DNA from: Verrucomicrobiota bacterium | GTDB taxonomy: Bacteria > Verrucomicrobiota > Verrucomicrobiia > JADLBR01 | NCBI GenBank assembly: GCA_029560585.1 | Contig: JAKQKQ010000008.1 | Coordinates: 1 to 64,000 of the forward strand | Length of the DNA: 64,000 nt | Direction of reading: 5' to 3' | Made by a program: the position numbers and the translations under genes | The notes under the pieces: generated by a model | Databases searched by the model: none | The model's input: the letters and a program-made list of their open reading frames with translations, nothing else | What the model was told of the DNA's origin: nothing | Part shown: positions 8,483 to 58,776 of the stretch, in pieces | How positions within the stretch are numbered: position 1 is the stretch's first letter | Layout of the letters: each line of letters opens with the position of its first letter

Positions 8483-8676
8483 GGTGCCTCCATCTCTTCT
8501 CCCCGCGGGACCGCGCGACACGGGATATTGGCCTCGGAAGGCACAAATTGCCCATGGCGACGAGCGCGCAAGGATGATACGACCGGCGCACGATGGCAAG
8601 CCAGGCGAAAGAGGGAGGGTGCGTGGCGCCAGGGTTGCGTGTGTCGCAGGCTGGCGGCGCGCCCGCTTGCCGTGGC

Positions 8677-8694
8677 GCAGGCAATCTTGCCTGC
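8677..8694. repeat. Short perfect palindrome
   Basis: GCAGGCAA and TTGCCTGC form a perfect 8-bp stem with a 2-base loop. It lies mid-gap, far from either gene, so it is more likely a dispersed palindromic repeat than a regulatory site. Confidence 0.4.
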
Positions 8695-8846
8695 GGCAGC
8701 GGCCCTGCGCCGGTGGTGGTGGCAGACAGGATTGTTGCCCCACGGCGCCCGGGGATCCGCAGGGGGCTGGGGTGATCTTGGCGTCATGCACCCGAAAAGG
8801 GGGCCCGGAGACGCAATTCGATTGACGGCGCCGGAGGGAACGCATA

Positions 8847-12198: not shown

Positions 12199-12351
12199 CG
12201 GGATCGCGGCCCAAGAGGCTTGCGAGCCGTATGTCATCCGCGCCATGAATGATGGTCGCTGACCAGAAACATCCGCGCGCCGGATTATTCAGGATGAAAC
12301 TTCTGGGGGTGGGGCCGAGGACGATGGCCCCGGCTCGCGCTTCGCGCGCTG

Positions 12352-12387
12352 CCAAAGCGGTGCCGGCCTACGGCGGCACCGCACTCC
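12352..12387 (-). repeat. Dispersed hairpin, family 2, copy 1
   Basis: GCGGTGCCG and CGGCACCGC form a perfect 9-bp stem with an 8-base loop, bordered by CCAAA on the left and ACTCC on the right. On the minus strand it reads GGAGTGCGG...CCGCTTTGG. The same borders enclose a related hairpin at 24034-24061, so this is one of at least two copies. Confidence 0.55.
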
Positions 12388-15700: not shown

Positions 15701-15822
15701 GGGCCCGCGGCCTCGCGGGCCGCGCATGTCAGGTGCCTTTCGCTACCCCGCGGGGCGCGGACGCCGGGGCCGGCGTCCCTCCCGCGCACGGCGCGACTGG
15801 TGTGCGGGTTCTTCAACGGGCT
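15701..15822 (+). repeat. Dispersed intergenic repeat, family 1, copy A (5' truncated)
   Basis: This 122-base segment aligns with 42345-42460. Shared blocks include CAGGTGCCTTTCG, the palindrome GACGCCGGGGCCGGCGTC and the following CCTCCC, and a T-rich end. Its right end is TTCAACGGGCT, the inverted form of the AGCCC...CGTTGAA seen at the left ends of copies B and C. It looks like a non-coding mobile repeat with terminal inverted repeats. Confidence 0.65.
15702..15721 (+). terminator. Strong GC hairpin after the ceramidase-like gene
   Basis: GGCCCGCG and CGCGGGCC form a perfect 8-bp stem with a 4-base loop, starting five bases after the stop codon. It lacks a T-tract. It also forms the left end of repeat copy A, so termination may be a side effect of the repeat. 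Confidence 0.4.
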
Positions 15823-42124: not shown

Positions 42125-42176
42125 TCCCACCATCGTCAGTGGGATTCGAGCTAGATCCCATCCGGCGGCTGCCGGA
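42125..42176 (+). terminator. Tandem hairpins after the 15-gene operon
   Basis: TCCCAC/GTGGGA (42125-42144) and TCCGGC/GCCGGA (42161-42176) are two perfect 6-bp stems 60-110 bases after the last stop. Neither has a T-tract, so this is a weak terminator call. Confidence 0.3.
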
Positions 42177-42198
42177 CGACCGGGGCAGAAAATAGGAC

Positions 42199-42248
42199 GT
42201 GGAAGCGAGCTTGCGCGCGATTCGAGTCGCCTGCAAGCAGGCTTCCAC
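42199..42248 (+). repeat. Dispersed palindromic repeat, family 3, copy 1
   Basis: The outer arms GTGGAAGC and GCTTCCAC enclose GCGCGATTCG and the inner palindrome GCCTGCAAGCAGGC. The same layout recurs at 59106-59167. Confidence 0.55.
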
Positions 42249-42272
42249 TGCCCGGCATATGAGTTTTCCTTG

Positions 42273-42460
42273 AGCCCCGCCCGTTGAAAGACGTCATAGA
42301 TTCCCCCCTGATGGCGTGCGTGGCCCGATTCCGCCGGGAGGGCCCGCGGGCTGGCGGACCGCGAAGGACAGGTGCCTTTCGTTTCTCGGTGGGATGCGGA
42401 CGCCGGGGCCGGCGTCCCTCCCATGCCCGGCGCGGCTGTTGTGTGGGTTTTCAGCGGGCG
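42273..42460 (+). repeat. Dispersed intergenic repeat, family 1, copy B (longest)
   Basis: This 188-base element starts with AGCCCCGCCCGTTGAAA and ends with TTTTCAGCGGGCG, which are near inverted. It shares its left 50 bases (CGTTGAAA, then CCCCTGATGGCGTGCGT) with 51575-51670 and its right 115 bases with 15701-15822. It is the most complete of three copies. Confidence 0.65.
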
Positions 42461-58340: not shown

Positions 58341-58359
58341 TGCCGGCCCCCGCCGGATT

Positions 58360-58402
58360 AGCCCGGATATTTCACAGCCTGCCGGCTGTGAAATTCCGGG
58401 CT
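58360..58402. repeat. Long hairpin H1 of the composite palindrome
   Basis: AGCCCGGATATTTCACAGCC pairs with GGCTGTGAAATTCCGGGCT across a TGCC tetraloop: 19 base pairs with one bulged T. It starts 19 bases after the ACT gene stop, so it could also act as a terminator. Confidence 0.7.
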
Positions 58403-58405
58403 CTG

Positions 58406-58540
58406 GGAAAACCGCGCCATGAAAGCCATTTATTGGGAAGGGTCAGGCAAAGACTGGGTTTTTTCGCGGTTGCGGAGTGTGTTTCGCGGACTGGTGGCCC
58501 CAGACCCTTCAAAGTCGCGTTCTTCGGAGCGCGGTTTTCC
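58406..58540. repeat. Nested inverted repeats between H1 and H2
   Basis: GGAAAACCGCGC (58406-58417) and GCGCGGTTTTCC (58529-58540) are perfect 12-base inverted arms. Inside them GAAGGGTC (58437-58444) and GACCCTTC (58503-58510) are also inverted. The four arms are nested, so the whole could fold as one long branched stem. Confidence 0.65.
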
Positions 58541-58544
58541 TTTG

Positions 58545-58584
58545 AGCCTGCATATTTCACGCGGAAGCGTGAAATATGCAGGCT
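58545..58584. repeat. Long hairpin H2 of the composite palindrome
   Basis: AGCCTGCATATTTCACGC pairs perfectly with GCGTGAAATATGCAGGCT over 18 base pairs with a GGAA (GNRA-type) tetraloop. It shares AGCC-x-G-x-ATATTTCAC with H1, so H1 and H2 are related palindromes. Confidence 0.7.
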
Positions 58585-58776
58585 AGGGCGACATCACCGG
58601 AAAATCAGGTTGAAGGGCGCTCACGGGCAGAGAGCCGCGGAGAACCCGCTCCCCCTCCGTGCCTTTGCGCCACTGTGAGGGACCTTGCGCTGGCCCCGCG
58701 CCCGGTGCGGTCTGCCTTCCTGAGTCCCGGATCGTAAAGAGCGCGCCGTCCCGGAGACCAGAGCGGGTTTGAAGTT

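Follow-up and report, generated by a model that had tools for sequence, protein, structure and literature searches.

A putative compound miniature transposon with IS1380-family ends, dispersed behind genes in a Verrucomicrobiota genome

The locus described here is a palindrome-rich segment near the right end of the 64-kb window (the whole stretch of DNA that was analysed). Hairpin H1 pairs 58360-58367 and 58369-58379 with 58384-58394 and 58395-58402 (8 + 11 = 19 pairs, with one bulged T), and hairpin H2 has an 18-bp perfect stem (58545-58562/58567-58584) closed by a GGAA loop. They are the top perfect short-loop hairpins of the window, with the inner 11 bp of H1 tying with one other site, and they have AGCC-x-G-x-ATATTTCAC in common as a direct repeat, 185 bp apart. 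The 12-base arms between them (58406-58417/58529-58540) form a perfect inverted match, and the inner arms (58437-58447/58500-58510; 11 nt, 91%) contain the 8-base perfect GAAGGGTC/GACCCTTC. Folded as DNA, the element reaches -70.6 kcal/mol compared with -35.2 ± 3.9 for 200 dinucleotide shuffles (z = -9.0). The initial annotation had described these two hairpins with their 12-base and nested inner arms, and all of them are present where it placed them; its 225-bp unit (58360-58584) holds as a structure, while its boundaries shift slightly. The element proper covers 58362-58582 (221 bp), lies between target copies at 58358-58361 and 58583-58586, and is bounded by the terminal inverted repeats CCCGGATATTTCAC (left) and CCTGCATATTTCAC (right). 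Its features are as follows:

58358-58361, + strand: left target-site copy TTAG (YTAR), recognized by its place beside the terminal repeat and by left/right covariation over 45 copies
58362-58375, + strand: left terminal inverted repeat CCCGGATATTTCAC, identical to autonomous IS1380 ends, e.g. in L223, L239 and L240
58360-58402, + strand: hairpin H1 (terminal repeat, loop, inverted repeat copy; 19 pairs, one bulge)
58388-58400, - strand: within H1, the left terminal repeat again in inverted orientation and lacking one base
58406-58417, + strand: subterminal arm GGAAAACCGCGC, the most conserved block within and between species
58418-58528, no strand: core, with an unrelated-looking replacement in the sister species and no codon periodicity
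58437-58447, + strand: inner arm pairing with 58500-58510, a pairing that the copies retain only weakly (75% of cells paired)
58500-58510, + strand: inner arm, partner of 58437-58447
58529-58540, + strand: subterminal arm GCGCGGTTTTCC, partner of 58406-58417
58545-58584, + strand: hairpin H2 (inner copy, loop, right terminal repeat; 18 pairs, GGAA loop)
58547-58560, + strand: inner copy CCTGCATATTTCAC of the right terminal repeat
58569-58582, - strand: right terminal inverted repeat CCTGCATATTTCAC
58583-58586, + strand: right target-site copy CTAG, one mismatch relative to the left copy

The genome of origin is a metagenome-assembled genome (MAG) of 7.06 Mb in 336 contigs, 95.7% complete; all copy counts are lower bounds. 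A search of this genome returned at least 40 scored places at 91-98% identity and at least 223 first-look candidates, and among the loci read there were at least 52 near-full-length copies with identical sharp ends and about 30 partial ones. The hairpin pattern TATTTCAC-N(2-20)-GTGAAAT matched 96 times forward and 92 times in reverse (reversed control: 0 and 1), so that the genome search proposed in the initial annotation finds the H1/H2 hairpins to be multicopy, and the single-copy, unconserved sequence that it had named as counting against its reading is not what the genome holds, the element being multicopy and having relatives elsewhere. Many partial copies end at contig ends near element position 139-144. 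Seven contigs (L061, L064, L069, L089 and L096-L098) break within the element near 139-144, probably at a k-mer limit, and chimeric copies are therefore possible. A 55-codon open reading frame in the core (MKAIYWE...) is open in most copies, but its substitutions fall 44/52/51 over the codon positions, without periodicity, and it is missing from the sister species; it was rejected as a gene. The element is thus short and gene-less, with terminal inverted repeats, many dispersed copies with defined ends and a target-site duplication (TSD), as expected of a miniature inverted-repeat element (MITE). Other palindrome-rich dispersed repeats lie in the window at 15703-15770 and 42161-42423 and, more weakly, at 8671-8747 and 12313-12376 (e.g. 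GGGAGGGCCCGCGG..., TCCGGCGGCTGCCGGA...); they are common to up to 7-11 other fetched loci of the same genome, and the MITE is inserted in them elsewhere.

The bases just outside both ends read YTAR, and the left and right 4-mers are the same in 35 of 45 copies (permutation p < 5e-5; CTAG in 26, CTAA in 6 and TTAG in 3), with the last target base (G or A) agreeing in 42 of 45 against 31 expected. A perfect duplication is missing in about 10 of the 45, including the window copy with its TTAG/CTAG flanks (one mismatch), and these cases could be put down to old mutations, to copies recombining with one another or to chimeric assembly. Some copies sit inside other dispersed repeats that also exist uninterrupted (for L005 in L102, L056 and L085; for L004 in L102 and L074), and these paralogues cross the insertion site with a single tetranucleotide, CTGG or CCAG, which is one base off YTAR. 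Because the direct flanking repeat differs between insertions, it is derived from the target, and the left/right match together with the uninterrupted paralogous sites indicates insertion by transposition with target-site duplication.

The genomic setting of the copies is strongly biased. With gene positions from a simple codon-model gene caller, none of 41 insertions lies inside a gene, compared with 155 of 266 other YTAR sites (p ~ 1e-14), and none of 40 lies between divergent genes, compared with a background of 42 of 133 (p ~ 4e-6); 16 lie between convergent genes. Many insertions are at most 60 bp from a stop codon, and 16 gene 3' ends fall within 4 bases of an insertion. Since YTAR includes the stop codons TAA and TAG, the duplication can regenerate the stop of a gene. 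The location behind genes needs no cause beyond selection against harmful insertions; an additional effect on transcript ends is possible, and a terminator scan gave it no support.

The terminal repeats lead to a transposase family. The IS1380-family gene (PF13701) L181 is bounded by CCCGGATATTTCAC and CCCGGATATTTCAT, L180 has TTAG abutting CCCGGATATTTCAT at one end (both from members of the element's class), and a decayed IS1380 copy in the sister species (G001) has an end that reads CTAA followed by TCCGGACATTTCATCG. A scan of named genomes with the L180 and L181 transposases returned 80 loci, from many phyla, and the 34 with readable ends carry CCCGGATATTTCAC or close variants as terminal repeats, with matching YTAR-type flanks in 25; in Singulisphaera acidiphila DSM 18658 the YTAR duplications are exact in 14 of 14 copies. 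Representative transposases score far above the NCBIfam NF033539 (IS1380) cutoff. Identity to the MITE end extends over 17 bases (TAGCCCGGATATTTCAC) in L239 and L240 and over 18 bases in L223, and no similarity of the MITE arms or core to IS1380 interiors was found past the ends. As terminal repeats and YTAR target are those of autonomous IS1380 elements, the element belongs with the MITEs of the IS1380 family and would be mobilized in trans. The initial annotation had called it a MITE-like unit of no nameable family; the first part stands on the dispersed copies, terminal inverted repeats and duplications, and the second gives way to the name IS1380. The subterminal arms (58406-58417/58529-58540), which show the highest conservation and recur in the sister species, are absent from every IS1380 element examined. 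In two loci (L228 at 1378/1383, L284 at 2223/2228) a pair of IS1380-type ends meet head to head at a single shared CTAG, as if one element had inserted into another's target duplication.

An intact IS1380 transposase of the matching subclade was not found in the incomplete, fragmented MAG of origin, whose sole IS1380 gene (L133) belongs to another subclade, lies at a contig end with unreadable ends and was rejected as the partner. The DDE_Tnp_1 genes of the same genome (L127-L132) were set aside for their different terminal repeats, and a hairpin near L128 proved to be a separate insertion, a lone unit (CCGAATATTTCAC...GTGAAATATTCAGGCTAA) at 2900-2950 of that locus, beside an unrelated transposase gene. 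L130 (about 1291-2903; terminal repeat CAGCSTGTCGGACTTTG, CTAG duplication) and L131 (about 1286-2726; terminal repeat CAGCCCGTTGAARAACG), each with a transposase gene, are a second, unrelated element group of this genome that also lands at CTAG-like sites.

Relatives occur in other members of the class. The sister species holds over 30 copies, in which H1, the arms and H2 are the same and the core is different; at the site orthologous to the window insertion its contig stops at the neighbouring gene. Two genomes of other families in the class carry related elements: G045 has many with the same end-hairpin type, and G092, assembled as one contig, contains a relative of 124-147 bp in about 35 copies, which likewise have CCCGGATATTTCA[C/T] as their terminal repeat and YTAR on the flanks. 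A search of G092 for an autonomous copy by terminal-repeat scan gave nothing but single repeats and pairs spaced by about 130 bp, with no PF13701 gene. Among its loci L150-L179 some copies have a short TTTCATGAAA palindrome and some a longer loop, so that the end hairpin varies in size. The strict hairpin was found in 7 of 286 genomes in a class-wide scan.

Several other readings of the hairpins and flanks were weighed. Two inverse-oriented hairpins at fixed spacing around a spacer, in high copy number and intergenic, recall the REPINs suggested in the initial annotation, which consist of two REP hairpins spread by a TnpA-REP (RAYT) single-strand transposase, and six Y1_Tnp genes are indeed present in the genome of origin. 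REPINs depend on an HUH (Y1) enzyme for their movement and do not duplicate the target, whereas the flanks here are direct, covarying YTAR repeats (CTAA..CTAA, TTAG..TTAG) of DDE type and not inverse GTAG/CTAC, and identical ends border IS1380 transposases. A check for a nearby TnpA-REP-type transposase, also proposed there, came back empty, as none of the six Y1/TnpA-type genes has H1/H2 hairpins within 1.5 kb. With direct repeats as flanks and no linked TnpA-REP gene, the element does not qualify as a REPIN, and we give that reading hardly any credence. Only slightly more credible, and still very improbable, is a MITE of another YTAR-targeting family, such as IS5 or the other transposase group of this genome. 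YTAR by itself is unspecific: L130 has a CTAG duplication with other terminal repeats, and IS5-family elements use it, as does the IS5-like MITEPsy1, which duplicates CTAG or YTAA (PMC3189936). The terminal repeats nevertheless differ (CAGCSTGTCGGACTTTG in L130, GGAAGGTCTGAAAAAGCC in MITEPsy1), the 14-base CCCGGATATTTCAC occurs exactly at IS1380 ends, and an IS701-type (IS701/DDE_5, PF13546) partner was rejected after none of the four genomes checked showed such a gene.

A structured non-coding RNA, or a cis-acting terminator or mRNA stabilizer recruited behind genes, would account for the strong fold (z = -9) and for the location close to stop codons, with no copy within genes or between divergent ones. 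It would also fit the base changes across copies, which preserve pairing in H1 and H2 with double changes at 8 pairs compared with 0 in 500 shuffles. Such changes would also be seen, with no RNA role, if the ends have to match or if palindromes are corrected, and selection against harmful insertions accounts just as well for the location. Against a functional RNA, there is no Rfam match at the gathering threshold and only chance-level matches at E <= 1, no T-tract follows H1 or H2, and the sister species has another core in its place. The structured RNA of the initial annotation thus finds no support; we consider this reading unlikely, and any RNA or terminator role would come in addition to transposition, as a by-product. 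A simpler history within the IS1380 family, namely an internally deleted IS1380 element whose hairpin ends arose by palindrome formation and not from two short units, deserves more weight and is a real, if minority, possibility. MITEs often arise by internal deletion, and a deletion between the direct arms of H1 and H2 can leave a lone hairpin. However, arms and core lack similarity to IS1380 interiors, an inverted copy of the terminal repeat is present at both ends, and copy L051 keeps CTAG on both sides of H1.

Taken on its sequence features, the element is very probably a non-autonomous 221-bp MITE with a 4-bp TSD, moved in trans by an IS1380-family DDE transposase that would recognize the CCYGSATATTTCAC ends and a YTAR target, most likely by cut and paste. 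What distinguishes it is the build of its ends, where next to every terminal repeat stands the same repeat in inverted orientation (H1 and H2), unlike the autonomous IS1380 ends examined, where a hairpin was found at none of 68 ends (34 elements; longest perfect stem 5 bp). Lone repeat-loop-inverted repeat units of 36-41 bp exist with matching duplications (L081 CTAG, L084 TTAG, L087 CTAA, L092 CTAG), and in L051 H1 is flanked by CTAG on either side with both arms intact; because of these lone units the element reads as a compound MITE. We infer that the element arose from a core enclosed by two short palindromic units whose inner ends decayed. L092 is exactly what would remain after a deletion from the ATATTTCAC direct repeat of H1 to that of H2, and it may be that every lone unit is such a remnant. 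In the mechanism that we propose, two such units (each a terminal repeat, a loop of 8-13 bases and the repeat inverted) would have come to bracket a core in the manner of a composite transposon, after which the inner ends would have decayed (CTAG to CTCT; TTAG/CTAG to TGAG). The transposase would act in trans on the CCYGSATATTTCAC ends and insert the element into YTAR, insertions would be tolerated mostly directly behind genes, partly because the stop codons TAA/TAG within YTAR are regenerated on duplication, and recombination or slippage between H1 and H2 would release lone 36-41-bp hairpins. More speculatively, and somewhat less plausible to us than the internal deletion, the 36-41-bp palindrome (two 14-base IS1380 ends and an 8-13-base loop) may itself be the real mobile unit, pairs of which mobilize arbitrary DNA as an exchangeable core; the core differs between sister species and the ends stay. 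If so, the palindrome would be among the smallest DNA-transposon units, and H1-core-H2 a composite transposon built from gene-less transposons.

As far as sequence comparison can assign a mechanism class, it is transposition in trans, with a compound MITE as the substrate and an IS1380-type DDE transposase as the enzyme. The insertion sequences of that family (NF033539; PF13701) share the CCYGSATATTTCAC terminal repeats and the 4-bp YTAR duplication (34 loci), but are 1.5-1.9 kb long, carry a transposase gene and lack end hairpins (0 of 34). MITEPsy1 of Pseudomonas syringae, a gene-less 100-bp mini-transposon that is experimentally mobile, likewise moves in trans with a 4-bp duplication; it differs in its IS5-like terminal repeats, related to ISPsy2, and doubled terminal repeats are not described for it (PMC3189936). 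TIMEs, the Tn3-derived inverted-repeat miniature elements, are non-autonomous miniatures that are reported to generate mosaic non-autonomous transposons, a process akin to the compound origin proposed here, and differ in having 38-bp Tn3-family repeats and 5-6-bp duplications (PMC4133298).

A previously unannotated high-copy repeat can now be named, and it accounts for many contig breaks of the assembly and for the build-up of hairpins behind genes. The element is tied to a transposase family for which a limited literature search found no MITE. As IS1380 serves as the prokaryotic outgroup of piggyBac (PMC10813416), a natural minimal IS1380 substrate would also concern the piggyBac field. The doubled palindromic ends and the lone 36-41-bp units offer a testable case for the minimal substrate of a DDE transposon and for the origin of compound MITEs.
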